In this document: positions 6,990-63,721 of the stretch, one piece after another
Position numbering within the stretch: position 1 is the stretch's first letter
Layout: every line of letters starts with the position of its first letter
From: Tupaia tana
Taxonomy: Eukaryota; Chordata; Mammalia; Scandentia; Tupaiidae
Assembly (NCBI GenBank): GCA_026018925.1
Contig: JAKSZU010000029.1
Span: forward strand, 9,399,378-9,463,377
Reading direction: 5' to 3'
DNA length: 64,000 nucleotides
Position numbers and translations under genes: made by a program
The notes under the pieces: generated by a model
What the model was told of the DNA's origin: nothing
Seen by the model: the letters and a program-made list of their open reading frames with translations, nothing else
The model's database searches: none

Positions 6990-9290
<2,301 letters not shown>

Positions 9291-14085: not shown

Positions 14086-14143
14086 GTTGCACCAGTAAGT
14101 TTTTGTAAACTTATTTTCCCCCCTTGGTTAAGATAACTATGTC

Positions 14144-14398: not shown

Positions 14399-14419
14399 AT
14401 AATAATAATAATAATAATT

Positions 14420-16796: not shown

Positions 16797-16810
16797 AAAT
16801 AGTACTTATA

Positions 16811-20530: not shown

Positions 20531-20548
20531 AAAATTTAGTCTTATGTG

Positions 20549-35394: not shown

Positions 35395-36754
35395 ATACAG
35401 ACACACGGAAATAAGAGTTCAAAAACTAAGGAAGTGGCCAACTTAATCATAGGGACAAGTCTGGAGTTGAATATTATACCCCAGAATTTAATCAGGAAAA
35501 TTGAACCAGAACAGAAGATAAAAGTACATGAGACTGATAGGTTCATGCACCTACCATTTGAACAGAATCCTAACTTGTTTCCTGGCTTTAAGCAAAGTTC
35601 CTCAGCATTTCTTTTATTTAAATTAAAACTAGTTTTCTTAATTGTAATGAGTGAACTCACCATTGAAAGTAATTAGATTATGTAAGAAATTGTGTGATCA
35701 ATACAATGTAGGTAGGAAAGGAATGGAAGACAATTGTAGACATCAGAGATAGTGTGAGAAGAGGGTGGGGAAGGACAGAGGGTCAGAAAGAAGGATAAAA
35801 ATAATTCTAGGAACTAGAAATGGAAAATTTTTTATAATAATATGCGTGATTAAGTCACAATGCAGTATATTCCAGGTGAGAAATCACATTTTGTATGCTG
35901 TGATGGTGCTTAGGGAAAGAATGTAAATTAAGGTACAAAAAAAAGTTTCAGAAAAAAAATATCTATTCAATGACTGCAGTAAGATATATAGCCCCAGCTA
36001 GGTGCTACTTTATACGATGCTTAAAGTTAGACTTGTGTCCACGGAAATGTATGTATCAGCTGTGTTTGCTATGAAAATATTTAGATTAATTAAGGTCTTT
36101 AGTAATTCAATAAAATGTGTGTGGGGGAAACAGTATAGAAAGCAAACATAGATACCAGAGACAGTGTGGGAGGAGAGTGGGAGATGGCAGAGGGTAAGAG
36201 ATAGGGAATCAAGGATGGGGGAAAAAAAGCAAAACATACAGAAAACAAGCGATGGAAAATTATTTGTTGACAATAACATGTTTGTTGATGTGCTTGATTG
36301 AGACAATATACAGTGTATCCTGGATGGAAAAATCTCATTTTGTATGCTGTAATGATGTACAGTGAATGAATGCAAATAAATAAATTTAAATTTAAAATAA
36401 AGAAGGAGAAGAATAAGCATAGGTTTTTTAAAAAGGGCAATATATATGCTATGGGGTACGTGTATGCACCTAAATTGTTTAAAAGGCAACATACATATGA
36501 GAAGCTGTAGATTCTTGATAGTGATAGGGGTAGTATAAAGGTATACAGTTCTTCAAGTTTATCCAAAAGTGTACATTAAATATGTGCAATTTTTGGATAG
36601 TATTTGCACCTCAATAAAACTTTTAAAAAGAACAAACCTGTTTTGTTCTTTATCTTTACTTTAGGCTTCTTTTGGTAAAAGTGTTATTGTCATGTGACAT
36701 AAAAAGAAACAATTTGTAACAAATATATAAATTTAAAACTTTTAATTTTTTTTT

Positions 36755-38118: not shown

Positions 38119-38450
38119 ACTAAGGAGATCTTTAATAAAGCATGTTAGTCTCTTATTTTAGGATTTATGACATTCTTTAGTAGAAAATAATTAACTTTTA
38201 TTGTTCACACAGCTGTTTTTTCATTCCTTAATTGTTAGAATAGAAGCACTTTCATTTTTAACATATCTAGGTAACCATTTTGACAAAACTACTTGCTTTT
38301 CTAAGAGTCAACTTCAAACTTGCTCAGAGCAAATCAAATGTTGCTATTGTTAGTACAAGTAGAAATTAAATGTAAATTAACTTTCTGATCTTTCTTTTTG
38401 TGTATGTATATTATATTGATTTGTTTTTTCAACAAATTTGTCTAATGTAT
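38119..38450. other. Unassigned stretch
   Basis: Nothing recognised. Confidence 0.35.
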
Positions 38451-38455
38451 TGTCT

Positions 38456-39095
38456 TTTTTTAATTTAAATTTATTTATTTACATTCATTCCCTATACATC
38501 ATTACAGCATACAAAATGAGATTTCCCATCCAGAACACACTGTATAATGGCTCAATCAAGCACATCAATATACGTGTTATCAACAAATACTTTTCCATTG
38601 ATTATTTACTATAAATTTTGCTTTTTATTTTTTTGCCATTCTTGATTCCCTATCCCTCACCCTCTGCTGTGTACCCACCCCCCATAGTCTCTGGTATCCA
38701 TGGTTGCTTTCTATGACTTTTCCTCCCATTTAATTGATTTGCTAATAAACTTAATTAGTCTAGATATTTCCAATAGCAAGCGTAGCTGACATATACATAT
38801 GCATGAACACAAGTCTGACTTTAGGCATATATGAAACTAGAAATGGAAAATTATTGATGATAACATGCATGATTAAGTGACTATGCAGTTTATTCTAGAT
38901 GGGAAACCACACTTGGTATGTTGTGACTATGCTTAGGGGATGAATGTAAATTAATTAATTAAAAAAAGTTTCAGGAGAAAAAAAAACATGAAAACTGTTT
39001 TTATTGAAATTTTTAAAAAAATGTATATTTGATGACTGCAGTAAGCTATATAGCCCCAGCTAGGTGCTACTTTATGTATATTCATTTTAATGTAT
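38456..39095 (-). mobile_element. Half-L1 3' end with 5' inversion
   Basis: 38456-38830 is the terminal 3' unit in reverse orientation, starting with a T-rich end. From 38830 the upstream part of the same tail follows in forward orientation (GAAACTAGAAATGGAAAATT to CTAGGTGCTACTTTATGTAT). The two halves are neighbours in the reference element at 40800-41440. The possible duplication TAATGTATT.TCT flanks it near 38443 and 39093. This is the signature of twin priming on the minus strand. Confidence 0.82.
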
Positions 39096-40812: not shown

Positions 40813-41445
40813 ACTAAAAATGGAAAATTATTGATAACATGCATGATTAAGCCACTATGCAGTATATTCTGGATGGATAACCATTTTTTGTATGCTCTGA
40901 TGATGATTAGGGAATGAACGTAAATTAATTAATTAAAAAATTTTCAAGAGAAAAAATATCATGAAAACTATTTTTCATGAAATTTTTAAAAAAGGGATAT
41001 TTGAGGACTGCAGTAAGCTATATAGTTCCAGCTAGGTGCTACTTTGTTGTATGTTCATTCTACTCACTGAGGTTTATGCCTAGTGTCAGACTTGTGTTCA
41101 TGGATATGAATATATCAGCTGCACTTATTATTGGAAATATTTAGATTAAGTTCATCAGAGAATCAATAAAATGAGGGGGGGAAGGCATAGAAAGCAACCA
41201 TGAATACCAGAGACAGTGTGGGAGGAGGGTGGGACATGGCAGATGGTGAGAGGGAATCAAGAATGGCAAAAAATAACAAAATATACAGGAAATAGGAAAT
41301 GGAAAATTGTATGTTGACAATAACACGTATGTTGATGTGCTTGATTGAACCAATATGCAGTGTATTCTAGATGGGAAATCTCATTTTGTTTGTTGTGATG
41401 ATGTATAGTGAATGAATGTAAATAAATAAATTTAAAGAAAAAAAA
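39838..41445 (+). mobile_element. Half-L1 3' part with inverted 5' end, split by a solo LTR
   Basis: 39838-39895 is the reverse complement of a stretch just after ORF1 in the half-L1 at 33600 (compare 35495-35535). The sense part starts with TAGGTTCA, is interrupted by the LTR and resumes at 40529 (GTTCATGTACCTAC). It runs through tail unit 1 (40660-40935) and unit 2 (41150-41440). A TA microsatellite (40780-40813) lies at the same spot as that at 16074. Confidence 0.8.
39911..40528 (+). mobile_element. Solo LTR, probably class II ERV
   Basis: 618 bp starting TGTGGGGACA and ending GACGCCGACA (TG..CA ends). It has CTATAAATAAAG near 40380 as promoter/poly(A) region and a U5-like end with GCCGAGCCTGGGGGTGG. 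GTTCAC at 39905-39910 and GTTCAT at 40529-40534 form a 6-bp duplication with one mismatch, a size typical of ERVK-like elements. No retroviral gene remains. Confidence 0.87.
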
Positions 41446-41955
41446 GTGATTCCATGTTCTAAAATTGGATCGCTGTTCCTTCTTCCATAATTTTTGAAGG
41501 TAGTATAAGGAAAATTAAAATTAATTCTGTTATGATTAAGACAGGCACAATAAATAACTGTAGCCACCTGTAGGTCATCCATGCCAGTGAAAGAGCACAA
41601 CTGCTCAGATGCTCCCCAAATGCTCATTCTGACTTTACAATATTCTCAGTTTTCTTCCAATATTTTGTCCACCTTGATTGTATTCATTCTAAGTTATGTT
41701 AAGGTTATATTGTGACTATATTCCATACTTCCTTCTCCTATTATTTTATAACATCAAGGGCAAGGAAAGACATGGCAAAGTCGAGGGGACAGAGAGCAGA
41801 AAGAGGATGATGGGAAGGAGCCAACCTCCAGGGACACTTCACAGAGAACACACAGAGTGGACTAATCATGTACAAATAATGGAGAGCTCACTTTAGAGAA
41901 AGAGGATTATTCACTAAATAGATTATTTTTCAGTACCACAAAAAAGTATACCTAG
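41446..41955. other. Unassigned stretch
   Basis: Nothing recognised apart from purine-rich sequence at 41760-41900. Confidence 0.35.
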
Positions 41956-42767: not shown

Positions 42768-43584
42768 CTGCCAGGGAAGAATAGACTTGTCTGCATCTCC
42801 TACAGATCCTATTTCTATTTTTTGCAAAAGCATCTTATCAAGAACTTGGGCCACTGCATGCATAGCATGATAGATAAAAAAGCTGGAGTCAGATGTTGTC
42901 ATCATGTCAAAATTAGGTGGTAGCAACTCTATGGAAGAATTTGGTCGGCAGTCTCCAAGTTTGCTACATAGTGATCCAGTAAGTGAGCAATGAAAAAAGT
43001 AAACCCAGAGTTTACTAAAATAAAAATCTTCTGGGTATTGGATAGGGTTGACTGTCTAGAGAAATTGTTTAAAGCCAGGAATTTTCCTTTTCTGGTTTGA
43101 AAATAAGAGACTTCCATGAAAAAAATATGGACAAGAATAACGAAAATCAGGTAAAATAGTTTTCCATGCTGAGGAGTAGAGATTTCTCATAACCCATACT
43201 TTTCCCAAAATTAAATAGAATTTTTGTTCCAAACCCAGATACCAGACACTCCCTTCATCACCATGTATTATATACACATTTGCAGATGAAACTCTGATCC
43301 TCTGATCCAAGGAAGTCACGATGTAAAAAGACACCTTTTGTGGCAGTGAGCTTTTCTGTAAAGGCCACACAGATATCCTTTTCTGTCATCTTTGCCTTTA
43401 CATCCTGGAGGAACTGCTCCCCTTGCATATCATCAGATACATAGAGTGCCACCCATGTCCAGCCAAAATGCATCAACAAGCAGATGATTCCATGAGCCAG
43501 AGAGCTGTCCTTGGTGGCCATCTGATAAACTAATGGAAATTGCTCTTTATCACTTAAGATGGGATTAAAAGGACCATATGTGAC
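42768..43584 (-). pseudogene. V2R pheromone-receptor pseudogene, exon 3
   Basis: Exon 3 codes for the second half of the Venus-flytrap ligand-binding domain of vomeronasal type-2 receptors (class C GPCRs). Readable: VTYGPFNPILSDKEQFPLVY, QMATKDSSLAHGIICLLMHF, GWTWVALYVSDD, then HGSLLFSNQKRKIPGFKQFL, NPIQYPEDFYFSKLW, ELLPPNFDMM and a LPWQ end. The 817-bp length, AG acceptor (TTTTTAATCAG) and GTAAAC donor are as expected. Lesions: a frameshift near 43325 and an in-frame TAG at 43056-43058 in place of the usual Gln after FKQFL. Exon 2 lies 2.6 kb upstream; exons 4-6, including the seven-helix part, were not found in this window. Confidence 0.95.
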
Positions 43585-44160
43585 CTGATTAAAAATAAAT
43601 AAATAATCTCACTTTTTGTTTTTATAAACAATGTTAAATGCCAGGTTGGGATAATTTAACTAAAATTTAATCTTCCTGGGTTTTTTGTTTTCATTTTTTT
43701 ACTAAAATTACTAGGTGGGGAGGGGTAATTTGCGAAACTTGCTGGTAAGGCAAATGAGTTAAAAATATTTATTCTCATTAAAATATTTTTTATTAAACTA
43801 ACTACCTTAAAAAATTTTTAATTAAAATAACTACCCTGAAATTTTTGCATGTGGAATATAGATACAACATTGAGAAAAATATGTGGCCTCTCAAGTACAT
43901 TGATCACCTATGTACAAGTGTCCAGTACACCATAAAGCAGCAGGGCAGTCAGTTAATTAAAAAATAACTAGTACATGTTATGTGTAATAAAATTAAATTT
44001 ACAAAGGCTTTCCCATGCAGGGATCTGATTCCGTTTCTGAAGCAGGGAGGAATCTTGGAGCAGCCATTTGCCCATAACAGACTGCACCAGAGCATTTCTG
44101 GGGGCTGGATGGATTTGCCAGTGAGGTCAGTGGGTGCCTTTCTAAATATTATTTAGATGA
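43585..44160. other. V2R pseudogene intron 2, part
   Basis: AT-rich; no repeat recognised. Confidence 0.5.
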
Positions 44161-46830: not shown

Positions 46831-47126
46831 AAGAATATGACTAAAAAGGGGCGGCCAGGCCTGCACGGCTGGGCCTGCATGGCCAGGGCTCTGCTTTGCG
46901 TTCCGTGGCTGGGGCTCTGCTTCGTGTTCTGCGGCCGGGACTCTGCTTCGCGCCCGGGCCGCCTGGCCCCCGCTGCCTTTCCAGTGCTGGGTGTGCACCG
47001 CGTTTGGTGCTGACGTGAGCCGGTGGCGTGGACCAGCCGAGGTCGCCATCCTTCCTTTCTCTGGCCGGGCGGGCGAACGGGAGGTGGCGCTGGGTCCCGA
47101 GGACATTCACATGCTCGGGGCTGGTG

Positions 47127-47585
47127 TGTGGCAGCCGGGCCTGCGCGTGGCCGCCGGGACTGCGTGTGGCAACCGGGCCTGCACGTGGCCACCGGGCCTG
47201 CGTGTGGCAGCCGGGCCTGCGCGTGGCCGCCAGGCCTGCACGTGGCCCCCGGGCCTGAGCATGGCCGCCGGGCCTGCGTGTGGCTGCTGGGCCTGAGCAT
47301 GGCTGCCAAGCCTGTGCATGGCTGCCAGGCCTGCGTTTGAGTGTGGCCGCCGAGCCTGCGCATGGCCCCCGGGCCTGCGTGAGGCCGCCGGGCCTGAGCG
47401 TGGCCGCCGGGCCTGCACGTGGCCCCCGGGCCTACACGTGGCCCCCAGGCCTGCGCGTGGCTGCCGGGCCTGCATCTGCACGTGGCCGCTGGGCCTGCAC
47501 CTGCGCGCGGCTGCCGGGCCTTCACGTGGCCCCCAGGCCTGCGCGTGGCCACTGGGCCTGTGCCTGCGCGTGGCCACTGGCCGCA
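47127..47585 (+). repeat. 20-bp GC-rich minisatellite of composite copy A
   Basis: About 22 units of the form GCCTGCGCGTGGCCGCCGGG with variants (CACGTGGCCCCCGGGCCT and others). CpG dense and partly decayed to TpG/CpA. It gives long ORFs on both strands, which are artefacts. Confidence 0.95.
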
Positions 47586-48022
47586 GGCGGCAAACTGAAG
47601 CCAAAAACAAGGATTAAGAACTTGCAACTATAAGCAACAGAAAGAAACTTTAACTGTCTTAAACCAATTGAGAAATATATTGTATAGGAGGATTTTCTCT
47701 ACCTATGGACAGTGAGAAGATGATGGTTACCAGCCCTGCATTACCTCAGGAAAAAACAAGAACTACTCTACCATTCTTAAGGAAGCCAGATACCCAAGGA
47801 TAACTCGCGCTGCAGATCCCCACAACACCATTCCCAGTAATCACAAGATGGATGCTGTGCCGCATCAACTGATAATCATCTCTGCTTACCAGAACTGCTT
47901 TCCTGAAACTGTATTCCATGGAGACTCACCTACAATTGCAGAACTGCACGAGACCCACCCTTAATCCAACCCTGAATAGAATCTATGTTCCCTATTGTTA
48001 AAAACTTTATGAGCTGATATTT
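47586..48022 (+). mobile_element. Shared 3' tail of the composite element (copy A)
   Basis: Begins GCGGCAAACTGAAGCC and ends TATGAGCTGATATTTG before the A-tail. Not GC-rich. I recognise no L1, SINE or LTR in it. It is the part best suited to define the family. Confidence 0.85.
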
Positions 48023-48053
48023 GAAAAAAAAAAAAAAGAATATGACTAAAAAG

Positions 48054-48312
48054 GGACCAGCAGTTAGCGTAATGGCTATGTCGCTGGACTCCCACATAGT
48101 CGACCGCGGTTCGCGTCCCGGACCCAGTGGCTTAAACTCACGCCAGGCGCGTGTGCGTGCTTGCCCAAGATTCCGGGAGGAGAATGGAGGAGAAGGGATT
48201 GTGGCGTGACCATCCCCCCTGGGGGGTGATTTCTCGCTTTCTATCTCTCTGTCTCTCTCTGTCTGTCTGGCGAGCACACGCGCCCTATAGCAAAAACCTC
48301 TCAAAAAAAAAA
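48054..48312 (+). mobile_element. SINE-L, young copy in the composite's right target duplication
   Basis: GGACCAGCAGTTAGCGTAAT to CCTCTC plus 12 A; subfamily GGGACC / GGCTTAAACTC. A third copy of AAGAATATGACTAAAAAG follows at 48313-48330, so the SINE used the same target site as composite copy A. Confidence 0.95.
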
Positions 48313-48330
48313 AAGAATATGACTAAAAAG

Positions 48331-48705
48331 TGCGCACATTCACTATATTCATACATATAAAAATGTATTATAGACAAGTTAGATATGCATATTTATAAAA
48401 TACGAAGTAGTTTTAGGATTTTTAAATATAACATGAACAATTGGACTAAGGCCATTACCATGTGTATCACCTGAAATAGTTCACATTTTCTGTAATGAAA
48501 ACTTTAGTATCATAGTCTTTTGACAGTATTAGATTGAATAGTACTCAATTATGTGTTACATTCACCATGCATACACTCATCTTCATAACCCTTCTAGAAT
48601 TGGGTATATCCCACATGTCACCTTGTTTCTATTTAGTTACAGAAACCATGAATGAAGCATTACTTATTTTTTTCCTATGTTCTGGAACATTTAAATAGCA
48701 CCTGT
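48331..48705. other. Unassigned stretch
   Basis: AT-rich, with nothing recognised. Confidence 0.35.
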
Positions 48706-48706
48706 C

Positions 48707-48900
48707 AGGGCCAGATGGTGGCATGGTATTTAAAGCCCTGGACTCACACATGGCCAACTAACAGTTCGAATCCAAAATCTGGTAGCTTGATTTCTTACTT
48801 TCTCCCTACTCCTCTCTGTCTCTCTGGTGAGGACACATGCCTGTTGCAAATGAAAAACAAAATGATGATAATGATAAATAATATTAAATAAGTAATTCTT
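48707..48900 (+). mobile_element. SINE-S-like copy
   Basis: GGGCCAGATGGTGGCATGGT to AATAATATTAAATAAGTAAT; it has GTGAGGACACATGCCTGTTGC near the end as in SINE-L. Confidence 0.78.
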
Positions 48901-49360
48901 TTTAAAGAAGTAGAGAAACTATAAATAGTGTCTAGCTTCTTAGTTTTTCAAACATTTGGCACATTTCAGGTACTTTTAGGTGGCTTTTTCTATATTTTAT
49001 ACACTATTATGTTAACTCTGAAAAAATTGTTGTTAAATATGCTTTAGTTTTAAATTAAATATTTAACTCAAATCTAGTCAATTATTGGCAGCATCAAGTC
49101 ATTTTACAAGTTTGTAAAAAACATTTTTCTCTGTAGTTAATTGGTCTTCATAATTTTCCTTTTCCCCTTGGAAATTCTCAGTTTTTAAAAAAATATTTGC
49201 TAAAAGTATATTTTGAGTTTTAAAAACAGCTCATTTTTTGGTTATTAATTTAGTGTCATATATTGTCTTTAATTGTTTCTAGATTCTCTTTGTAATTGTT
49301 CTGGTGTTAATTTCTTAAATTGCAACCTTAATTTAAACATTTACAGTGTTTTTTCTTTTC
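48901..49360. other. Unassigned AT-rich stretch
   Basis: Nothing recognised with confidence. Confidence 0.35.
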
Positions 49361-49362
49361 TT

Positions 49363-49604
49363 TTTTGAAAGGTTGTTGTCATAATGTTTGTACCGTTGAG
49401 AGAGACATCATGAAAGGAAAAGTGAGAATTCACCCCCCAAGAAGGTATGGCCATGCTGCAACCCATTCTCCTCCATTTTCTTTTTGGGAAACTGGGGTCA
49501 TCTTTACATGTGCCCAGCATAATTTTGATGCCACCAAGTTCAGGACTCAAACTACAATCAGCCAAGTGGGAATGACTTAACTGCTCCACTATCTACTTGT
49601 TCCC
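49363..49604 (-). mobile_element. SINE-L copy, diverged
   Basis: TTGAAAGGTTGTTGTCATAA to CCACTATCTACTTGTTCCC. Confidence 0.75.
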
Positions 49605-49704
49605 TGATTTGTTAATAAGGCATGTTAGACTAAAGATTTTTATACAATCAGAACTCTTTTTTTTTTTTTGAATTGGTTCTTATGTTTTATTTTTATTTTA
49701 TTTT

Positions 49705-49950
49705 TATTATTTTGCTATAGGGTGTGTGCACTCACCAGAGTAAAACAAAGAGAGAGAGAAATAGAGAATTTATACCCTGGGGAGAAGGTCATGCCATGAT
49801 TCCTTCTCTTCCATTTTGCCCTTGGGATTATTGGACAAGTAGGCATACCCTGACCTCTCATGTTTTTCAAACAACTCAGTTCAAACAACTCACTTCAACC
49901 ATGAAGTCAGCCATGTAAGAATCAGCTGCCTTAAGCTCTATGCTGAGTTA
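49705..49950 (-). mobile_element. SINE-L copy, diverged
   Basis: TATTATTTTGCTATAGGGTG to AATCAGCTGCCTTAAGCTC; the distal head is decayed. Confidence 0.75.
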
Positions 49951-50059
49951 GGAGTTAGATCCCACTCTAGGTAGATAGGAGATGAGCTCTGTATAAAGCA
50001 GTTACTGTGATTTTGCTTTCTGTGGTCTGGTGAATGTTCGTTATGCCCGCATTACTAGT

Positions 50060-50238
50060 TTTTTTGTAGTTATTTATTTAATTTTATTTATTCATTCATT
50101 TATTTTTTACTTTGACCAGAGAAAGACAGACACACAGAGAGAAAGTGAGAAAGCAAGCCACCAGGTCCAAGACTTGAACCATGGTTGGCCATGTGGGATT
50201 GTCCAGCACCTTAACCACCATGCCACCAGCTGGCCCCC
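50060..50238 (-). mobile_element. SINE-S copy
   Basis: TTATTTATTTAATTTTATTT, then TTTGACCAGAGAAAGACAG through to GCCACCAGCTGGCCCCCCC. Confidence 0.9.
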
Positions 50239-50327
50239 CCATTACTAGTTTCAAAGGAACTTATGATTCCTCATTGGCTGGCCTAAAATCAGATTGAAAA
50301 CAGTCACTATCTGGAGCAAAAATTGTG

Positions 50328-50410
50328 AGATTTAAGCCTCTAGGTCTGCGAATAGAATTGTGACCACATCAGAGTACAAGACCTTGACTGCTATTCCACT
50401 TGCTGGCTTG
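50328..50410 (-). mobile_element. SINE head fragment
   Basis: GATTTAAGCCTCTAGGTCTG to CTATTCCACTTGCTGGCT; only the tRNA-like half remains. Confidence 0.65.
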
Positions 50411-50955
50411 TGCTAGATAAAGCTTTAATCAAACTTCTGAAAGTTCTCCCAGGCCTATCTTCAAACTTGTACATAATACATACAAGTGGATTTGGCCAGA
50501 ATCTCTATTACCTGTAATGTTACTACTTAGTAATTTTCTATCCAATTACTCCCACCTTGCTCTTTGGTTGCAAATTTTTACTTATCCTTGTTATATTCAG
50601 ATTTGAAACTGATATTCTTGAACTACTGAAAGATCTCATGGCCACACTTCTCTTTTTTTAGTATTTTTTAAATTTATTTTCATAAAATATAAATTACATA
50701 AAATTTATCATCTTTCCACTCAATGTTCTAGGACCATTACCTTCACGCATCTTCATGAATCCTTTCATCTTGTAAGACTAACAAACCTACAACTATTATT
50801 ATACAATAATGTCAAATCTTTGCATTCCTCCCACCTGACCCAGCCTCTGGCAAACCATCATTCTTTCTGTACTTATTATTACTAACCTGAACATCCCATG
50901 ACTGTTTTTACAGTGAAAACCAGTCCAAAAAAAGTTTTAAATCTACTTTAAAAAA

Positions 50956-51225
50956 TCGGGAACCAGCAGTTAGCATAATGGCTATGTCGCTGGACTCCCA
51001 CGTAGTTGACCGCGGTTCACGTCCCGGACCCGGTGGCTTAGAACTCACGCCGGGCGCGTGTGCGTGCGTGCCCAAGATCCCGAGAGGAGAATGGAGGAGA
51101 AGGGATTGCGGCATGACCATCCCCCCTGGGGGGTGATTTCTCGCTTTCTGTCTCTATGTCTCTCTCTGTCTGTCTGGCGAGCGCACGCACCCTCTAGCGA
51201 AAAACCTCTCCAAAAAAAAAAAAGA
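50956..51225 (+). mobile_element. SINE-L, young copy with empty paralogous site
   Basis: CGGGAACCAGCAGTTAGCAT to CCTCTCC plus A-run. AAAAAAT-type flanks. Arm 1 continues without it (TTTAAAGAAATCGATTC on the reverse strand). Subfamily GGGAACC / CTCTATGTCTC. Confidence 0.94.
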
Positions 51226-52379
51226 AAAAAAATTGATTTGAAGATATTGGATAAAGTGGGGTGAGAAAAGCTTTATTTTGGTCCATCATTGTAAGCTTAT
51301 GGTCCACAGAAATGGGAGTTTCAGTGGGGAAGAGAAATTGGGCTCAACTTCAAATACAGCATGGGCAGTGGAAATTAACAGCTAAGGAGCCATGTGGTGA
51401 TTATCAGATGGAAAATGACTAAAGAAACATTAGGAATATGAGAGATTCTGGATAAGCTGAAATAATAGGATTCTTGCTGAGGACACAGGGTGATCAGACA
51501 TCACACAGGGGACAGTGGACCACAAGAAACCTAATCACTTATTTAAAATGATCTGATATTTAGTTTGGGGCTTCTTGCTAAACTACTTAGCAGGGTTATT
51601 TGCTCAAAGGGGATTTTACAAGGAAGTATGCAGAGGAAACTAAAAGATTGAGAGGCCTGACTAAAGTTTGATCAAAGCAAAACTTTGACACATTTTAACC
51701 ATGTCCAAGTATACGCAATTTAGTACTATTCAATATGTTTCTATTACTGTGCAACCACTCCAGTCACTTTTACAAGATGGAAAGAGTCATACAGATAGCA
51801 GTAGTATTTGTTAGACAAAGTGAGTGCACACAGAAAGTCTGGTCATCTCACTTTTCACATTGTAGCTCATAGTGACTTCCACCAGCCTGTTCCTGTCACC
51901 ACTGAGCAGCAACCTTACATCCCACCCACCATGGTTTGTTCTACCTGGGTCATGATGTTAGGCAAACCAAAATTAAAATCAGCCCAATACCAATTCACCT
52001 TGGGTTGCATTTCTGGACCAGTGCATGTTCTGCCTCAGAACCTCTTGGCTAACGCTGGCCACAAAAGCTGTGATCAACATCCAAAGAGGATCTTAGAAAT
52101 TTTATAACCACCCAGGACTATGTTGTGCCTCAACACACTCAGAACTTTCACATGCCTCCTGTCCAACCTAGGTCATTTCGATTCTCAAAGTAAACTTGGA
52201 CATTTTACCAGAGGTACACTTGCAGAGCCCTCTCAGTACATATGAATAGTTCCCAGGCTCTGAAATGCCTTAGAATTTTTTTGTTTTGTTTTAGTTTGTT
52301 AGGCATTTATGGTATGTTTTATTTATTTTTATTTTTAATTTATTTTATACACTTAATTTATACATCTCTTAGCTTGTAA

Positions 52380-52720
52380 GTTAAATTTATCCAAAATGAA
52401 TAAATGTCCCACCAGAGCAGGTGAGGATACAAAACACATTATCATCAACATATTATAATCCATTTCTGTATCCCCGAAATGCCTGCCTAGTTTCCTCCAT
52501 AACTTCTTTCCTTACACTGTCCCCTTTCTCCCATCCTCTTCCCACATTGTCTCTAGTACCTATAACCATTTTCAATGTTTATATGGCCTATAATCTTTCA
52601 GTTTCCACTATGCTTTGAAACACTTTTTCTGTTGTCTTGCCTTCCATGAAAGTAGAAGCTAGAAAAATTTCTATATTTATTTTTGCCAAAACCAGTGGTT
52701 ATATTCTGTTGCATCTTTAA
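52380..52720 (-). mobile_element. L1 3' end in duplication arm 2
   Basis: Reverse complement of 9750-10110, with TTAGCTTGTAAGTTAAATTT at the element's 3' side. Confidence 0.75.
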
Positions 52721-52756
52721 ACATCAAACATAGAACACAGAAATAAACTTTTGCTA

Positions 52757-52920
52757 GGGCCAGCAGATGTTTTAATAGTTATTCCAGTGGCCTCCCATAT
52801 ATTTGAATGCACTTCAAGTCCCAGAGTCACAGACTTAAAACTCAAGCCAGTATGTGTACATGTGTCCTCAAGATCCCAAGAGAACAGTGGAGACGAAGGG
52901 ATTGTGGTGATGGCCACACT
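52757..52920 (+). mobile_element. SINE-L copy shared by both duplication arms
   Basis: AGGGCCAGCAGATGTTTTAA to GTGATGGCCACACTTCTC; 3' part missing. Orthologous within the duplication to 9545-9720. Confidence 0.85.
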
Positions 52921-52978
52921 TCTCACATTTATTTTGAGATTTTAAGGGAAGCTTTCTTTACTGAGCTATAAAATATAT

Positions 52979-53148
52979 GGAGAGATCAAGAGGTGGCATG
53001 GTGATTAAGGCATTAGATTCCCACAAGGCTGACCATGGTACATGTCTCAGGCCTGGATGCTTGAAAATTATGACAGAAAATGTGCATGCATGTCCAAAAT
53101 CTTGAAAGGAGAATAGAGAAGTGATTGAGGTGTGGCTATCATCACTGG
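52979..53148 (+). mobile_element. SINE-L copy, 3' truncated
   Basis: GAGATCAAGAGGTGGCATGG to GGTGTGGCTATCATCACTGG. Confidence 0.75.
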
Positions 53149-54428
53149 TTTATATATGGTGGTAGCCTTTGGATACCTATGGTTTCTCTACAAACACATT
53201 TCTACCGTCTCTAGTCAGCAGTGAGCACCCAGAGTCAGCACCTTGATTCTAACATTAATTTCATGTCAGGTGCTCAGTGTCACAGTATGCATACAAGCCT
53301 CACTATATGGGTTTGGTGGAAAAAGTGCTATGGTACCAACAATCTCACTTATTCTGAGTTTCCAAAGACTGAACATGAAGACAGTATTGATGGAGTGGAC
53401 AACAAGCTATATTTATTCTCTGTTCTGTCTTAAAAGAAATGGAGAAACACTAAAAATGAGAAGAAGAAAGACAGTAAAAGGATAACAAGGCATCCTGAGT
53501 TCACGACTGTGCTCTTCTCTCATTTCTGTGCATACTTGATTATTCCCAATGTGATTAATAACACACACACATATGCCAAGTACATTATTACACAGATATA
53601 AACACATTTACACATACATATAACCATCAACTTACTGAGGTCTTGACACTACTTGAGGTGGCCTCATCAGAAAATGTAGTTGGCTTACAGTTTCTTTCTC
53701 TTCCATGGTATGAAGAGGAAAAAATCCACCCAGTACCAGGTCCCCATCCTTGTAGACACTTCCAGTATCTACGACAGCTAAAATGTGTCACCTTACATGC
53801 CATTTGTAAAGGCTGCAGAAGTACCAAGACACAAATCAAAGGTAATGACATGTCTGAGCTGGCCCAACATAGATAAAAAGTCCTATGTGTGGGAGCTGAG
53901 AAGGAGATGAAACTGGATTGTGTCTTCAGCCTCAGCCCTCTGTTGGGAGAGTCAAGTCTGTGGAGGGCACAGAGGATTCACACTTCCGCCTGCTGCCTTC
54001 AACCTGTATAAAATGTGTTCTAAACTGGCATGACAGGCAGGGACATAACAAGAACTTTTAAAAAGGCATTTCTACAGGAGCCATGGTGCTGAGACTTGTG
54101 CTTTATCTGAAAAGATCTGGTTTCCCTGTCTTTTTATTGTTTACTTAAGTTCTATCCAGGGGCTCTGGGGATCTCTTTGCCCTGGGGTTCTGCACCTGTC
54201 ACCTTTCATTTTAGTGAAAAACAATTTTGGAAAAATATGTTTTGCACTGTTTTTCTTCCCCAGACTTTATGATTTCATAATGAGCAGGTAAGACTTTGGG
54301 GACCACCCCATCCTGAGACAACAAGCTTTATAATTTTGTGACTAAGAGAGGCCAAAGTATTTGTATCACACAACTGTTCTTATTAAAATGGTTAGTGACT
54401 TTTAAAAATGGTGTTAAAATATACAAAA
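53149..54428. other. Unassigned stretch
   Basis: About 1.3 kb without SINEs. Several short ORFs (53221-53485, 53627-53876) show no family that I recognise. A TATAAAA near 54008 is isolated. Confidence 0.35.
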
Positions 54429-54429
54429 G

Positions 54430-54678
54430 TTGGACTAGCAGGTGACATAGTAGTTAAGGCACTGGACTCCCACATGACTGATCATGGTTTGAGCCCTGGA
54501 CCCTGGAGCTTAAAATTCATGCTGAGCACTTTTGCATGAATGCAAAAAATCCTGTAATGGAGGAAAATGGGGAAGGGATTGTGGTGTGGCCATCCCCTCT
54601 TGGGGGTGAGTTCTCACTTTTCTCTGTCCTTTGGCAATCACATGTGCCCTACAGCAAAAGTACCTCTCTTAAAAAAAT
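54430..54678 (+). mobile_element. SINE-L copy, diverged
   Basis: GTTGGACTAGCAGGTGACAT to GTACCTCTCTTAAAAAAATT. Confidence 0.83.
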
Positions 54679-55205
54679 TAAATCCACAATAGTCTAATTC
54701 TGTATGATTACTTAGCAAGGAAGGAAAGGAATAATATCAGTCATTGGTGTCTTCCTAACTAGTGTTCAGAAGGCATTTCATTACTATATTCAATATCATT
54801 CTCAGGTCTGCTACAACAACATGGCACAAATGAGCCTTTTAACTTACAAAAAAGTAGGCTAGTTTCCAGAGAAGATTAGATTATTCTTAAATTCCAGTGC
54901 TCCACAAAATTAATCACATACCCCTGAGAATATCCTCTGCTCTGTCCACTGATAATTCAAGTGTCAAGTACTCATTATATAGTTTAATAATTTATAACTA
55001 AAAATAACTCTATTCTTGACCTAGCATTTATAAACTCTTGTCATATTTTTTATCTTACCAGTTTTTATAGAAAATATTCTTGAAAATTTTTATGACTTGT
55101 TCATTCATTTATTTTTTTCTTATTTTTATAAATATATGATATGCAGAAAGATATTTTAACTGCTGTAAACTTTGTGGGATGACTAAATTGGGCCATTTAG
55201 CATGT
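54679..55205. other. Unassigned stretch
   Basis: AT-rich; possibly further L1 but not recognisable. Confidence 0.35.
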
Positions 55206-55209
55206 ATTA

Positions 55210-55365
55210 CCAGGGCTGGCAGGTGGTGGGGTGGTTAAGTTGTTGTATTCCCACATGGCTGATTGCAGTTTGAATTTCAGACTTCGTGACTTGGTTTCTC
55301 ACTTTCCCTCTCTCAACTTGGTCAAAATTAAGAAATAGTAATAAATAAAATAATTCTTTGAAAAC
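55210..55365 (+). mobile_element. SINE-S copy
   Basis: CAGGGCTGGCAGGTGGTGGG to AATAAATAAAATAATTCTTT. Confidence 0.83.
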
Positions 55366-55544
55366 AACATATATATTACCTCACAACTTGTTTCTGCATT
55401 GAGAATACAATATCTACTCTCAGGGAATTTTTTCAGGTATACAATATAATGTAATTCATTGCACTGACTTGATGTATATTAGAACCCTTGAACTCATTCA
55501 TATTCTCTATCTGAAATACTGTGTTTTTGGAGCAACATTTTTAT

Positions 55545-55793
55545 TTCATTTTTAGAGAGAATTTTGCTATAGGGCATAGGTGTTCACTGGAAAGACAGAG
55601 ACAGACAGAGAAAAATCAAGAAATCACCCCTAGGGTGGATGCTCACACTGCAATCTCATCTCCATTCTCCTCTTGGGAGTTTGGGCTAACACACACACAT
55701 GCCTGGCATGAGTTTTAAGCCACTGGGTGAGGGACTCAAATTGCGGTGTACCTGGGAGCCTAGCGACCTAACCATTACACCATCAGCTTCTTC
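55545..55793 (-). mobile_element. SINE-L copy
   Basis: TTTAGAGAGAATTTTGCTAT to TTACACCATCAGCTTCTTCC. Confidence 0.82.
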
Positions 55794-55997
55794 CTTGATC
55801 AACATTTTTAAAACCTGGCTATCCTCAACCCGTAGTAGCTGTCATATTATTCTCTGCTTCCTGCAATTTTAGTTTTTAATGCTCTACTTACATGTAAAAT
55901 GATGAGGTATATGTCTTTGTGTACCTGAATTATTTCAATCAGCATAATGTCCTCCAAGATCATCCTTATTGTTGAAATAACAGAATAATATGTTTTG

Positions 55998-56215
55998 TTA
56001 CTTATAGGGTGCATGTGATCACCAAAGACTGAGGGAAAGAGAAACATTTCCCAATGTAGCTTCATCGTGCTTCAATACCTTCTCCATTTCTCTATTCTGT
56101 CAGGGTTTTGAGAATGCACACACACATACATAATGTGTTTCTTAAGCCACCAAAAGTGGAATTTAAGCCATGGTCAGTTATGTGGAACACTGATCTTTTA
56201 AACATTAGGTTATGG
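55998..56215 (-). mobile_element. SINE-L copy, decayed
   Basis: TTTTGTTACTTATAGGGTGC to AGTTATGTGGAACACTGATC. Confidence 0.68.
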
Positions 56216-56305
56216 AGTTGGAATGCAGAATTCTTTTTTAAAGGCTGGATAATATTCTATTGTACACATAAAAGGTTTTCTTATTTATTTTTAAAATTTT
56301 ATTTA

Positions 56306-56570
56306 GGGAACCAGCAGTTAGCGTAATGGCTATGTCGCTGGACTCCCACGTAGTCGACCGCGGTTCGCGTCTCGGACCCGGTGGCTTACAACTCACGCCG
56401 GGCGCGTGTGCGTGCGTGCCCAAGATCCCGAGAGGAGAATGGAGGAGAAGGGATTGCGGCGTGACCATCCCCCCTGGGGGGTGATTTCTCGCTTTCTGTC
56501 TCTATGTCTCTCTCTGTCTGTCTGGCGAGCGCACGCGCCCTATAGTGAAAAACCTCTCAAAAAAAAATTT
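56306..56570 (+). mobile_element. SINE-L, youngest-looking copy
   Basis: GGGAACCAGCAGTTAGCGTA with most CpGs kept (GTCGACCGCGGTTCGCGTC), ending CCTCTC plus A-run. AAATTTTATTTAG / AAATTTTTATTTAG flank it. Subfamily GGGAACC / CTCTATGTCTC. Confidence 0.94.
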
Positions 56571-56584
56571 TTATTTAGAATTAT

Positions 56585-56738
56585 TTTTTATTTAACTCTA
56601 TTTATTTATTTATTTTAATTTGACCAGAGATTGACAGAGTGAGAGAAAGAAAGCAAGCCACCAGGCCCGAGACTTGAACCATGGTCAGCCATGTGGGAGT
56701 CTAGTGCCTTTCACCACCATCGCACCTGCTGGACCCAA
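56585..56738 (-). mobile_element. SINE-S copy
   Basis: TTTATTTAACTCTATTTATT, TTTGACCAGAGATTGACAG to CGCACCTGCTGGACCC. Confidence 0.88.
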
Positions 56739-56749
56739 ATGGTTTTCTT

Positions 56750-56930
56750 AAAAATATTTATTTAATTTATTAATATTCTTATTTAATTTTCTATTGGATA
56801 TGTGCTCACCAGAGAGAAACAGATAGCACAAGAGAGAGGGAATGTGAGAGAGCAAGCTGACAGCTCTGGGACTTGTGGTCAACCATGTGGGACCAGCACC
56901 TCAAACACCACAGCACTTGCTGGTCCCCGT
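56750..56930 (-). mobile_element. SINE-S-like copy
   Basis: AAATATTTATTTAATTTATT, GGATATGTGCTCACCAGAG to ACAGCACTTGCTGGTCCCC. Confidence 0.82.
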
Positions 56931-57249
56931 AACATGTTTTTACCCACAATTTGTGTATGATGGTTTTGTTAAAGTCTTATCATGACTGTTATAAATAAAT
57001 TTGCAATGAACATGGAAGCATAAATATAGTGTTTGATATATTAAGGACATACTATTGCCTATATCCAGGAATGCAATTGGGGGAAGTCACTATGGTAGTT
57101 CTATTTTTAATTTTCTGAAAAACCTTAGAAAACTATTTTCCATTGTGTTTAACCAATTTATGTTTTTACTAACAATGATCAAATGTTCCCTTTTCTTCTT
57201 GTATTTATTGAATTGTATTTTTTTAAGAATAGCTATCTTAAGAGATGTG

Positions 57250-57418
57250 AGGTGATGGCTAGCAAGCAGTGTTGTTGTTGAGGCAATGAACTTCCACATG
57301 GCTGACTATGGTTTGAGTGTTGGAACTGGTGACTTGCTTTCTCACTTTCCTTGTCTCTCTCTCTCTGGTCAAACTAGAAAATAATAGCAAACATATATAT
57401 AAAATAAATTTTAAAAAA
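57250..57418 (+). mobile_element. SINE-S copy
   Basis: GTGATGGCTAGCAAGCAGTG to CTGGTCAAACTAGAAAATAA. Confidence 0.82.
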
Positions 57419-57420
57419 AT

Positions 57421-57687
57421 TTGAGAGTTTTTTGTTGTTGTTGTTGCTGCTGTAGGATGTGTATGCTCACCAGAAAAACAGAGAGAGACAGAGAGGCAGA
57501 AATCGAGAAATCACTCCCCAGGGGGGATGGCCATACTGCAATCCCTTCTCCTCCATTCTCCTCTCGGGATCTTGGGCATGCATGCATATGCACCTGGCAA
57601 GAGTTTAAGCCACTGGGTCTGGGAATCGAACCACAGTCAACTACATGGGAGTCTAGCAACATAGCCATTATGCCAACTGCTTGTCCC
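57421..57687 (-). mobile_element. SINE-L, young copy with trinucleotide run
   Basis: TTTTTTGTTGTTGTTGTTGC at the 3' end (TTG repeat), full body, and head GCCAACTGCTTGTCCC. Subfamily GGGACC / GTTTAAGCC. It abuts the left duplication of composite copy B. Confidence 0.92.
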
Positions 57688-58189
57688 AATAAAAAATATT
57701 TTTAAGAAAAAGAGGTGTGAGCGGCCCTTATCAAAGCTGCAGCTGCTTCCGCGTAGCTGCTGTGGTCAAAGAGGAGCCCAGAGTGAGTTTCCCCGACGGT
57801 CGCCGTCCGGCCTGCCATGGCCGGTGTGCAACATTGTGGGGAAAAACATCCGTGGGTGTGGCCGGGGCCTGGGAAGTTCATTGGGGACAACCCTGCTGTG
57901 TTGGCCTTGCAGGGGGACGAGCCCGGACAGCAGCCATGTCTCGGAGGGAGGACCCTGGACTGCCATGACCAGTGAGAACAGCGGCGGCCCTGGCCGGCAT
58001 GGTTCCCGGCAGGTGGCTGCAGAGCCAAGGGGCCCTTTGCTCCCGGAGCGCTCGGACCAAGGCCTGCGTTTCTGGGAGCCGGTTCTGCAGAGCTGGGAGA
58101 CACAGGAAGAAGGGCAGCACAAGGAAAAGCAGAATTCCTGGTGGCAACAGCTAATGTAGCTCTGAGTGGCCAATAAAGAGTCTGGCAGG

Positions 58190-59200
58190 ATGCCCCTGCG
58201 TGGCGGCGGGCCTGGCCGGCGCAGTGGGCCGGGGCTCTGCACCACGCGGGCCGGGCCGGCGCGGCGGGCCGGGTCTCTGCGCCCCGCGTTCCCCTGCATG
58301 GCGGGCTGGGCCGGCGCGGCGGGCCGGGGCTCTGCGCCCCGTGTGCCCTTGCGTGGCGGCCGGTCGGGCCGGCGCAGCGGGCCGGGGCTCTGCGCCCTGT
58401 GTGCCTCTGCACGGCAGGCCGGGCCTGCGCGGCGGGCCGGGGCTCTGTGCCCTGCGTGCCCCTGCGCGGCGGCGGGCCTGGCCGGTGCAGCGGGCCGGAG
58501 CTGTGCACCACGCGGGCCAGGCCGGCGCGGCGGGCCGGGTCTCTGCGCCCTGCGTTCCCCTGCATGGCGGGCCGGGCCAGCGCGGTGGGCCGGGGCTCTG
58601 CGCCCCGTGTGCCCTTGCGCGGCGGCCGGTCGGGCCGGCGCAGCGGGCCTGGGCTCTGTGCCCTGCGTGCCCCTGCACGGCGGCAGGCTGGGCCAGCACG
58701 GCGGGCCGGGGCTCTGCGCCCTGTGTGCCCCTGCACGGCAGGCCGGGCCTGCGCGGCGGGCCGGGGCTCTGTGCCCTGCGTGCCCATGCGCGGCGGCGGC
58801 CAGGCGCAGTGGACCGGGCCTGCGCGATGGGCCGGGGCTCTGCGCCCCTTGAGCCCCTGCGCGGCAGGCCGGGGCTTTGTGCCCCGTGTGCCCCTGCACG
58901 GCGGGCCGGGCCTGCGCGGCGGACCGGGACTTTGAGCCCCGCGTGCCCATATGCGGTGGTGGGCTGGGCTGGCGTGGCGGGCCGGGGCTCTGCGCCCCGT
59001 GTACCCCTGCATGGCGGCGGGCCGGGCGGGCGTGGTGGGCCGGGGCTCTGCGCTCCACGTGCCCCTGCAGGGCGGGCCGGACGAGCGCAGCGGGCCAGGG
59101 CTCTGCGCCCTGCGTGCCCGTGCGCGGCGGCCAGTCGGGCCGGTGTGGCAGGCCGGGGCTCTGCGCCCCACGTGCCCCTGCACGGCGGGCCTGTGCGTGG
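58190..59200 (+). repeat. 55-60 bp CpG-rich minisatellite of composite copy B
   Basis: About 17 units built on GCGGGCCGGGGCTCTGCGCC followed by CCGTGTGCCCCTGCACGGC. Unit length varies by short indels. Traces of the same motif occur at the 5' end of copy A (46895-46960). Confidence 0.95.
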
Positions 59201-59309
59201 GCCCTGGGCCCACTCTCGTTCCCCCCCCGCCTGTGAATGGCCACCAGGCCTGTGTGTGACCCCAGGCCTGCGTGTGGTCCCTGGGCCTGTGCCTGCGTGT
59301 GGCCACCGG

Positions 59310-59753
59310 CCACAGGCGGCAAAATGAAGCCGAAAACTAGGATTAAGAACTTGCTACTACAAGCAACAGAAAGAAACTTTAGCTGTCTTAAACCAATTGA
59401 GAAATATATTGTATTGGAGGATTTTCCCTGTCTATGGACAGTGAGAAGATGATGGTTACCAGCCCTGCATTACCTCAGGGAAAAACAAGAACTACTGTAC
59501 GATTCTAAAGGAAGTCAGATACCTGAGGATGACTCACGCTGTAGATCCCCACAACACCATTCCTGGTAATCACAAGATGGATGACATGCCACATCAACTG
59601 ATAATCACCTCTGCTTTCCAGAATCGCTTTCCTGAAACTGTATTCCATGGAGACACACCTACAATTGTGGAACTGCATGAGACCCACCCTTAATCCAACC
59701 CTGAATAGAACCTATGCTCCCTATTGTTAAAAACTATATGAGCTGATAATTGA
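59310..59753 (+). mobile_element. Shared 3' tail of the composite element (copy B)
   Basis: Collinear with 47581-48022 along its whole length, with scattered substitutions only. Followed by an A-run and then by L1 sequence rather than by the insertion end. Confidence 0.88.
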
Positions 59754-59763
59754 AAAAAAAAAA

Positions 59764-60042
59764 AAAGAAAGAAACTGAAAGAACTGGAAGATACAATAGC
59801 AGGGATGGCAACTGCAGATACTAGAGACAGTATGGGAGAGGTAATGGGAATGAGTAATTGAGGGCGGAAGGGAGGGATTCAGGGAACAAACAACACACTT
59901 AACAGACACAAAAATGAAAAGTTGTCTGTGGATGATAATGTATATGGTATAATCATTGTCTTGACTAATGTGCACTGTATTCATGCTGGGAAAAACCATG
60001 TTGTACACTGTAAAGAGGTGCAATGATTAAATGTAAAAAAAA
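59764..60042 (+). mobile_element. L1 3' end carried by composite copy B
   Basis: GAAACTGAAAGAACTGGAAG, then ACACAAAAATGAAAAGTTGT and AACCATGTTGTACACTGTAA, as in 32055-32340. It gives the element a second, terminal poly(A). Confidence 0.85.
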
Positions 60043-60298
60043 AAAAAAGAAAAAGAAAAAGAGGTGTGATGTGATATTTCACAATTGTTTTCATTTGTAT
60101 TTTCCTAATGATTAGTGATATTGAGTTTTTATTCATATGCCTATTGGCCATCTGTATACTTTCTTCTGAAAAATATCTATCCAAGTCCTTTACACTTTTC
60201 TCCCTCAGTTGTTATCTAAATATTAAGTTTTTAATTAATTTTGAATATTAACTTTTTATGTAATATATTACTTACCAGTTTTTAGTTTTATATAACTT

Positions 60299-62009: not shown

Positions 62010-63721
62010 CAGAAGAAGCTGAGCCTTCAGGAGAAGGTTCCACATGGCGCCAGCGAACTAGATTTTTTAGGGAATGAAGATTTTCTACTGATAATTCAGC
62101 CTACAACAAACGAGCTAGCGACTGAACTTCAAGAATTTGAAAGAAACACACCATCCATCAGATGACGAGAAATCACTGCCGGGTCACGAGAAATATGGGA
62201 AAACAAGAAAATATCTCTCCTCCAAGGGAAAAGAGTAACTCTTCCTCATCCACAAGCAGTTCGGTGAAAATCATGGAAATGTCTGATAAGGAATTTAGAT
62301 CATTCATAATGTCGAAGCTAACAGAGATGGAAGAGAAGAGAGATAATGAACTGCTAAAGAGAAAGGAGAAAGAAGTTGATGAGGTCCAGGAGATGAGGAA
62401 ATTCTTGCTAGATCTAAAAGAGGAATTACACACTTTACAAAAGACTCAAACGGAACTGCTAGAGATGAAGTCTATAATACAAGAAGTCAAAATCTGCCTT
62501 GAAAGTATTAAAAGGAGACTAGATCATTGAGAAAATAGAATCTCAGATGTAGAAGAGAAAATGGCTGGCTTAGAAGAATCCACCATGAAGACTGAGAAAA
62601 TGTCCCAAAAATTTGAGAATGATATGCGAGAAGTACTGGATACCATCAAACGTCCAAATATACGGATAATTGGCATTCCAGAAGGTGAAGAGACCCATAA
62701 GGGAATTGATAATCTATTCCATGAAATCCTGCAAGAAAACTTTCCAAACCTAGAGAGGCATTTGAAGATCCAGTCCCAGGAAATACAAAGGACCCCAAAT
62801 AGAATCAACCCAAGAAGATCTTCTCCAAGACACATTATAGCCAGGTTGACCAAAACTGTAGACAAAGACAAGATACTAAGATTTGCAAGAGAAAAACATC
62901 AAGTTACCTACAAAGGACATCCCATCAGGCTAATAGCAGATCTCTCATCAGAAATAATGCGAGCAAGGAGAGAATGAAAAATATATTGAAAGTGTTACGA
63001 GAGAAGCAATTTCAGCCAAGAATACTGTACCTGGCAAGATTATCTTTCAGGCGGGAAGAAAAGACAAGAACATTCTCAGATAAACAAAACCTGAAAGAAT
63101 TTACCAGCACCAGACCAGATTTCCAAGAAGTTCTCAAGGGTGTGCTGTATCAGGAAAATTAAACACAGACTCACAGAAATAAGAGTCCAAAAACTAAGAA
63201 AGTGGCCAACTTAATCATAGGGACAAGTCTGGAGTTGAATATTATATACCAGAATTTAATCAGGAAAATTGAACCAGAACAGAAGATAAAAGTACATGAG
63301 ACTGATATGTTCATGCACCTACCATTTGAACAGAATTCTAACCTGTTTCCTGGCTTTAAGCAAAGTTCCTTGGCATTTCTTTGATTTAAGTTAAAACTGG
63401 TTTTCTTAGTAGTAATGAATGAACTCACCATTGAAAGTAGTTAGATTAAGTAGGAAATTGTGTGATCAATGCAATGCGGGTGGGAAGGGAATAAAGGACA
63501 ATTGTGGACACTGGAGGTGGTGTGAGAGGAGGGTGGGAAGGAACAGAGGGTCAGAAAGAGGGGTGGAAATATTTCTAGGAACTAGAAATGGAAAATTTTT
63601 TGTAATGTGCGTGATTGAGTCACTATGCAGTGTGTACTGGATGGGAGATCACATTTTGTGTGCTGTGATGATGCTTAGGGAACGGATGTAAATTGAGTTA
63701 CAAAAAAAAAAAAAAAGTTTC
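62010..63721 (+). mobile_element. Half-L1 (HAL1-type) retrotransposon, second copy
   Basis: It has one 5' monomer (62013-62120) joined directly to the ORF1 leader, so it lacks about 300 bp present in the 33.6-kb copy. ORF1 spans 62195-63162. The following tail (63163-63720) contains only the first of the two 3' units and ends ..AAAAAAGTTTCAG, where the MRPS36 retrocopy begins. Again no ORF2. Confidence 0.88.
62195..63162 (+). pseudogene. L1-type ORF1, nearly open
   Basis: Same product as at 34446-35394, with the complete GIPEGEETHKGIDNLF stretch that the other copy lacks. Lesions: TGA at 62528-62530 (Thr codon in the other copy) and a one-base deletion near 62975 that makes a premature TGA at RRE. 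The C-terminal domain continues in the next frame to QEN-stop at 63162. Total length matches about 321 residues. The two ORF1 copies differ by few residues, so the family is fairly young. Confidence 0.93.

Follow-up and report, generated by a model that had tools for sequence, protein, structure and literature searches.

The window analysed here is a stretch of 64,000 nucleotides of Tupaia tana DNA (contig JAKSZU010000029.1 of assembly GCA_026018925.1, positions 9,399,378 to 9,463,377 of the forward strand), and it harbours two plus-strand copies, A and B, of a composite retrotransposon built around variable numbers of tandem repeats (VNTRs). Exact target-site duplications set the limits of both copies, at 46851-48035 for copy A and 57721-60052 for copy B. 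Copy A lies between 20 identical base pairs (46831-46850 and 48036-48055), with TTT directly before the first of them, and opens within a 5'-truncated remnant of a first GC-rich array, labelled VNTR1 by inspection (46851-46952; Tandem Repeats Finder (TRF) gives a period of 26 at 46881-46952). A unique GC-rich spacer follows (46953-47127), which blastn detects in 24 of 30 sampled family loci, copy A included. Behind it come a second array, VNTR2, with the 19-bp unit GTGGCCGCCGGGCCTGCGC (47128-47585; 21.8 copies by TRF at 47128-47560), a unique family tail of 437 bp (47586-48022) that recurs genome-wide, and a terminal A-run (48023-48035).

Copy B is flanked by 17 identical base pairs (57704-57720 and 60053-60069) and is the more elaborate of the two. 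Its 5' end is formed by a head in three parts: the H/ACA small nucleolar RNA (snoRNA) SNORA16 at the extreme 5' end (57721-57851), the remaining 3' portion of the intron that contains SNORA16 (57852-57912, with a border placed by hand), and four downstream exons of an SNHG12-like gene from which three introns have been spliced out (57913-58189). The head runs into VNTR1, here with units of about 55-58 bp (58190-59200; TRF 58191-59191), and then into a short link with two to three VNTR2 units (59201-59314; TRF period 19 at 59229-59270, and blastn matches to copy A). The tail (59315-59751) aligns with that of copy A over 437 bp at 91.3% identity and with zero gaps. An internal A-rich link (59752-59768), comparable to A-runs in other copies, joins it to a module resembling the 3' end of L1 elements, termed L1a, which carries an ATTAAA (59769-60038) and is followed by the poly(A) (60039-60052). 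The two copies thus differ in their array mix, by TRF mainly 19-bp units in A and mainly 55-58-bp units in B, and the array region of copy B has a GC content of 0.81 and an observed/expected CpG ratio of 0.80. The shared GC-rich tandem body, common tail and exact duplications that the initial annotation had ascribed to the two copies are thereby confirmed. The layout that it proposed for copy B holds overall, except that the block behind the tail (59756-60052, 297 bp including the A-runs) had not been separated from the rest and is in fact a module shared by the family.

That the family extends well beyond the window is evident from searches of the window's own assembly (2.95 Gb in 1,198 contigs). 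The tail of copy A, which the initial annotation had singled out as a probe of the host genome, was used as query, and the best 40 of 3,320 first-look candidates were scored; they comprised copy A and 39 further matches at about 96% identity to it (95.7-96.3% for the loci that were cut out). An exact 36-base word from the tail occurs 749 times in the genome (380 forward, 369 reverse) and its reversed control 0 times, so that the family numbers at least 749 tails. Thirty loci, cited below by L numbers, were cut out by rank of similarity to copy A, and therefore make up a non-random sample biased toward young copies. Their common layout is VNTR1, spacer, VNTR2, the 437-bp tail, an A-run, the L1-like 3' end and poly(A), with an optional second 3' module. 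Where the 5' end is resolved, the GC-rich part measures between 6 and about 1,170 bp, and the end itself falls inside the GC-rich arrays or, in L020, at the tail. On average the copies diverge by 1.1-1.9% from the consensus of their own branch, which, at the mammalian neutral rate of about 2 per 1,000 sites per million years, corresponds to an age of some millions of years. The exact tail words, the variable VNTR and the duplications at 20 of the 30 loci support the earlier proposal of a family in the style of SVA, and it is well supported that both copies are members of a young and large non-autonomous VNTR composite retrotransposon family with L1-style insertion. The origin of the tail may lie in a long terminal repeat or in an untranslated part of an endogenous retrovirus. 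A coding remnant is unsupported, since four short peptides from the tail gave no Pfam match below E 0.13, and one 24-base tail word had 0 matches in the collections of viral contigs and genome contigs.

Behind the tail, blastn finds in 28 of the 30 loci an A-run and then the extra 3' block known from copy B, about 267 bp long, which rules out a private 3' transduction in copy B; only copy A (L001) and L004 stop at the A-run, and copy A is the odd one of the pair. Both AATAAA and ATTAAA are missing from the tail and ATTAAA is present in the block of copy B, so that internal priming may explain the copies that stop at the A-run. Behind the first module, 14 of the 30 loci have a second one that closes with an AATAAA-type sequence (13 complete, with first bases only in L020). 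The branch with two complete modules (L003, L005, L006, L008, L012, L013, L015, L016, L019, L021, L023, L026 and L027) looks as if its 3' end had grown by the uptake of downstream poly(A) sites. The first module resembles the 3' ends of L1 elements at the level of DNA similarity. The block of copy B matches 32066-32325 at 72% identity (E 2e-32), a segment not itself established as L1, and has further, short matches, with E values between 3e-4 and 4e-3, close to or at L1-type 3' ends at 16710, 36150, 38542 and 41349. In an initial control, each module was shuffled three times, and one match at E 3e-4 appeared, from the second module. In a larger control on the first module, 8 of 200 shuffles reached E 4e-3 or better and none fell below 1e-3, and 0 of 200 matched within the L1-type 3'-end stretches 16690-16800, 36300-36410, 38450-38560 and 41330-41450; no shuffle gave a match at the four positions named above or in the vicinity of three of them.

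Marks of insertion are widespread in the sample. Of the 17 loci with a covered 3' end, a scan made without a shuffle control found duplications at the GC-rich boundary in 13; these measure 13-20 bp, and six of them contain a single mismatch. The same scan found no convincing duplication at L007, L009, L014 and L029. At the 13 loci with two complete modules, exact duplications were sought behind the second module: seven have one of 11-16 bp (the best in 20 shuffles was 0, and 10 at one locus), and the other six have none of 10 bp or more. Across the 18 duplications listed, T precedes 11 and AA starts 15. The A-runs at the 3' ends and the TT/AAAA-like nick context match what is expected of a non-autonomous retrotransposon mobilised by L1, and the window itself contains L1-type open reading frames (ORFs) of the ORF1 kind (Pfam PF02994, Transposase_22); on these traces, L1 would be the mobilising enzyme. 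One of these elements, at 34371-36404, consists of an L1-type ORF1 (PF02994, 7.6e-29), a stretch with no open ORF2 (three frames, around 35380-35980) and an L1-like 3' end, which is the layout of a half-L1 (HAL1-like) element. The other lies near the window end (62120-63709), likewise carries an L1-type ORF1 (PF02994) and is 91% identical to the 34371-36404 copy over 1,594 alignment columns.

The head of copy B, a block (57721-58189) whose source the initial annotation had left to be found, can be traced to a host gene. Rfam assigns 57720-57851 to SNORA16 (RF00190) with 120.3 bits over the full length of the model (1-135 of 135); as this match starts at 57720 and the target-site duplication ends at 57720, the first base of the element is the second of the match. 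A genome search with the head, in which 40 of 63 candidates were scored, gave 46 matches, corresponding to a source gene and 39 retrocopy loci. In the source gene (L048; G000:C642:13317934-13319102, locus positions 1501-2669) the head is split by introns with GT-AG borders into four pieces, which by blastn correspond to head positions 1-277, 273-342, 340-380 and 384-467, and an AATAAA is present, as it is in the head of copy B at 58172-58177 (head position 452). Part 2 of the head is collinear with the gene up to the CAG of a 3' splice site, and at the last exon border copy B differs by a few bases from the present source gene. Rfam finds, in order, SNORA16, SNORA44, SNORA61 and SNORD99 in this gene, a set that we take to be the mark of SNHG12. 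The GT-AG introns are absent from the head, which is thus made up of SNORA16, what follows SNORA16 in its intron, and the exons further downstream, spliced together and reaching roughly to the poly(A) site; its origin in the SNORA16 host gene is well supported.

The retrocopies of this SNHG12-like gene are informative in their own right. In 30 of the 39, the start lies no more than 3 nt from a snoRNA 5' end: SNORA16 in 19 (including five composites with the VNTR element), SNORA44 in 5, SNORA61 in 5 and SNORD99 in 1. The four 7-nt windows that this allows make up about 2.4% of the 1.17-kb stretch, by arithmetic and not by a control run, so that about one start would be expected by chance; as the query started at SNORA16, that class is possibly favoured. 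Such starts are the trace that RNAs with a 5' end protected by a small nucleolar ribonucleoprotein (snoRNP) would be expected to leave. The remaining retrocopies are varied. Alignments of L043 and L069 start 6 and 12 nt upstream of the snoRNA, with the target duplication of L043 putting its start at the snoRNA base; in L047 the first snoRNA bases are seen just before an internal gap; and L049, L052, L054, L063/L064 (with shared flanks) and L065 start internally. The head-only retrocopies L037-L040 and L042-L046, among which L044 and L045 have common flanks and count as one event, match the features of snoRNA retroposons (snoRTs) in their start at a snoRNA 5' end, their A-tails and their target duplications, several with one mismatch. 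For L041 and L047 no target duplication was found, and L041 extends past the poly(A) site. A VNTR-element tail has itself received one SNORA16-headed retrocopy (L035, head at 1501-1968), whose exact 15-bp duplication consists of tail sequence. Three others (L050, L051 and L072) are older, at about 74-86% identity to the copy B head, and the sequence that follows their snoRNA is longer; the supply of SNORA16-headed RNAs by the donor gene accordingly goes back a long way.

Head, VNTR, tail and L1-like block occur together at no fewer than five loci, namely copy B (L031), L032, L033, L034 and L036. All five have a common junction, at which GAGTYTGGCAGG is followed directly by RTGYCCC, without A's and a few bases from where the head-only copies enter their poly(A). 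Each has its own exact duplication (17, 15, 16, 11 and 15 bp), and the start is at the identical base in four and one base inside in L036. The tail consensus of the headed copies is 4.8-5.7% apart from the other two consensuses, with 0.7-2.8% among the headed copies, and three of the five have several head differences in common. The common junction, the separate tail branch and the separate duplications point to one fusion, after which the unit moved several times. A snoRNA head common to the entire family is ruled out by the resolved 5' ends in GC-rich arrays or tail and by four headless relatives: L073, which is 99% identical by tail and 5'-truncated, and L074-L076 (96%).

Taken together, it is probable that a VNTR composite family captured a SNORA16/SNHG12-like head from a snoRNP-protected RNA and that the resulting unit was mobile thereafter. 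In such a scheme the poly(A) RNA of the element would be copied into staggered nicks, presumably by the L1 machinery, leaving duplications and A-tails as its marks. One branch, copy B included, would have acquired a new 5' end consisting of SNORA16 and the spliced downstream exons of the SNHG12-like gene. The donor RNA would have started at the snoRNA 5' end, kept the rest of that intron, lost the later introns by splicing and been polyadenylated. Such a start would be explained most simply if an H/ACA snoRNP formed on the RNA during its synthesis and halted its 5'-to-3' trimming, as in the SPA lncRNAs (long non-coding RNAs) discussed below. The head would have been joined to VNTR1 near the host poly(A) site, probably by a template switch of the reverse transcriptase or by RNA joining in a single L1 event, and the fused unit would then have moved onward as a single element. 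The start of all five headed copies lies at the snoRNA 5' end, so that the snoRNA may still set the 5' end of the element RNA. A further proposal, on balance slightly doubtful, is that the snoRNA has kept the 5' end of this lineage intact: an H/ACA snoRNP at the start of the RNA would stop trimming, and full-length copies would share their start base wherever the parent was transcribed.

The alternatives differ in how they account for the head. It could be an ordinary 5' transduction, in which a SNORA16 retrocopy upstream of a VNTR element was included by read-through from an upstream promoter, and the shared 5' end is a transcription start instead of an end protected by a snoRNP. Passages of a paper on L1 describe 5' transduction and co-opted promoters (PMC13174262), and SNORA16 retrocopies are in fact found inside a VNTR element (L035, in the tail) and next to one (L043). 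However, a single promoter could not account for retrocopies of the host gene that start at the 5' ends of four different snoRNAs. Nor does the junction, which is close to the poly(A) site and has no A-run, resemble that expected of a retrocopy still carrying its poly(A) tail; we therefore regard transduction as unlikely. Still less credence attaches to a series of independent template switches by the L1 reverse transcriptase from VNTR RNA onto SNORA16-ended RNA, in the manner of U6/L1 chimeras, with a headed unit that never moved by itself. Chimeras of L1 and small RNAs are known, and according to the same passages those with U6 arise independently and usually spread no further (PMC13174262); a template switch would likewise yield a snoRNA 5' end. 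One fusion followed by spread is nevertheless the simpler account of a junction that is the same in all five copies, a tail branch of their own about 5% apart and head differences common to three, so that repeated switching is quite improbable. Finally, copies A and B are only about 11 kb apart and could in principle have arisen by local duplication, or be a minisatellite rich in GC and flanked by similar sequence, in the absence of any mobile family. This is ruled out by the distinct, copy-specific exact duplications and by the 749 exact tail words, those listed being spread over many contigs.

Capture of a snoRNP-protected RNA, the reading that we prefer, has a number of observations to contend with. 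The transcription of the composite RNA, its binding by a snoRNP and its 5' trimming are predictions drawn from a trace in DNA. The snoRNA part is not clearly more conserved than the rest, with 56 pairwise differences in 1,306 against 177 in 3,360 (4.3% and 5.3%) among the five headed copies, and 9 of the 39 host-gene retrocopies start more than 3 nt from any snoRNA 5' end. With five headed copies found (40 of 63 candidates scored), the family at large needs no head, and L073, close but truncated and headless, implies that a precise 5' end is not universal even within the branch. The poly(A) signal in the head (58172) requires read-through. As for the part ascribed to L1, 10 of the 30 sampled loci lack a convincing target duplication; the left edges of duplications beside an A-tail are ambiguous, so that the A-start is partly built in; and the L1-like label of the 3' module draws on DNA similarity of about 70-76%, the best match (32066-32325) not being established as L1.

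Comparison with known systems places the family beside, but apart from, those of primates. VNTR composites (SVA, LAVA, PVA and FVA) are described as hominoid-specific, with SVA2 of macaque and gibbon as their common ancestor, in the portions of the literature consulted (PMC4432496). The present family resembles all of these in its GC-rich VNTR body, unrelated 3' module, target duplications, non-autonomy and L1-style insertion, and it resembles LAVA further in that the 3' part of the latter is said there to include an L1 fragment (PMC4432496). It differs from SVA and LAVA in its terminal L1-like 3' end and in the snoRNA/lncRNA head of one branch, and from SVA2, on the unit lengths given in those portions, in having units of about 19 and 55-58 bp instead of 39-40 bp, a comparison of lengths and not of the letters of SVA or LAVA. 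The CT-hexamer/Alu-like 5' region of SVA was not recognised in the family copies by inspection and Rfam, with no Alu library. A search of the literature found no paper on this family, which is no proof of absence; it is apparently an independent VNTR composite family, one branch of which has a snoRNA/lncRNA head.

The head itself has its closest likeness in snoRTs such as rhesus SNORA24b, which is described as the snoRNA, the 3' intron, exons 2-3 and the poly(A) of SNHG8 (PMC2832892) and so has in common with the headed elements a 5' snoRNA, a kept 3' intron, downstream exons, poly(A) and target duplications. However, SNORA24b appears in that account as a single retrocopy, while here the same kind of RNA heads an element found five times. 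The platypus snoRTE, in which an H/ACA snoRNA is joined to an RTE-type element and which accounts for about 40,000 snoRNA copies (PMC4233971, PMC2832892, PMC11028025), likewise places an H/ACA snoRNA within an amplifying retroelement. It differs in its RTE-type partner and far higher copy number, and the excerpts drawn on mention neither VNTR nor host-gene exons; the Tupaia element has a 3' end that resembles the L1-type 3' ends of the window, the sequences with which it was compared. SPA lncRNAs end in a snoRNA at the 5' side and are polyadenylated at the 3' side, and in one of them the C/D snoRNA that naturally forms the cap can be exchanged for an H/ACA snoRNA, which protects the RNA by blocking XRN2 (PMC11028025). 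The 5' snoRNA and polyadenylated 3' end are thus common to both, whereas SPAs are host transcripts, and the relevant sections of that paper mention no retrotransposon headed by a SPA (PMC11028025).

Elsewhere, the window is populated by other repeats and gene remnants. A tRNA-like short interspersed element (SINE) of about 260 bp is abundant, with copies at 48053-48311, 50958-51219, 56306-56567, 20261-20532, 14138-14403 and further positions, about 84-96% identical to one another, and ARAGORN called no tRNA in them. An open frame on the minus strand (43258-43608) matches the receptor ligand-binding region PF01094 (E 2e-15) and is presumably a fragment of a vomeronasal type-2 receptor. At 7455-8613, a degenerate array of 84-bp repeats looks like a disrupted run of C2H2 zinc fingers; a scan of one piece yielded a PF00096 match that was weak and did not reach the family cut-off (E 0.0087).

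That a host with an abundant SINE of tRNA-like and not Alu-like appearance has at least 749 tails of this family suggests that the VNTR-composite design can exploit L1 more than once, and the family offers a second system in which the role of the VNTR can be tested. The 39 retrocopies of a single gene amount to a fossil record of germ-line RNA ends, in which the SNHG12-like gene is seen to have supplied spliced and polyadenylated RNAs that begin at each of its four snoRNAs (at SNORD99 in one copy alone). Finally, the branch with the head poses the question whether a snoRNP can act as the 5' end of a mobile element; if the snoRNA does keep the 5' end of this lineage intact, RNA processing of the SPA type would be convertible into a mobile-element module.

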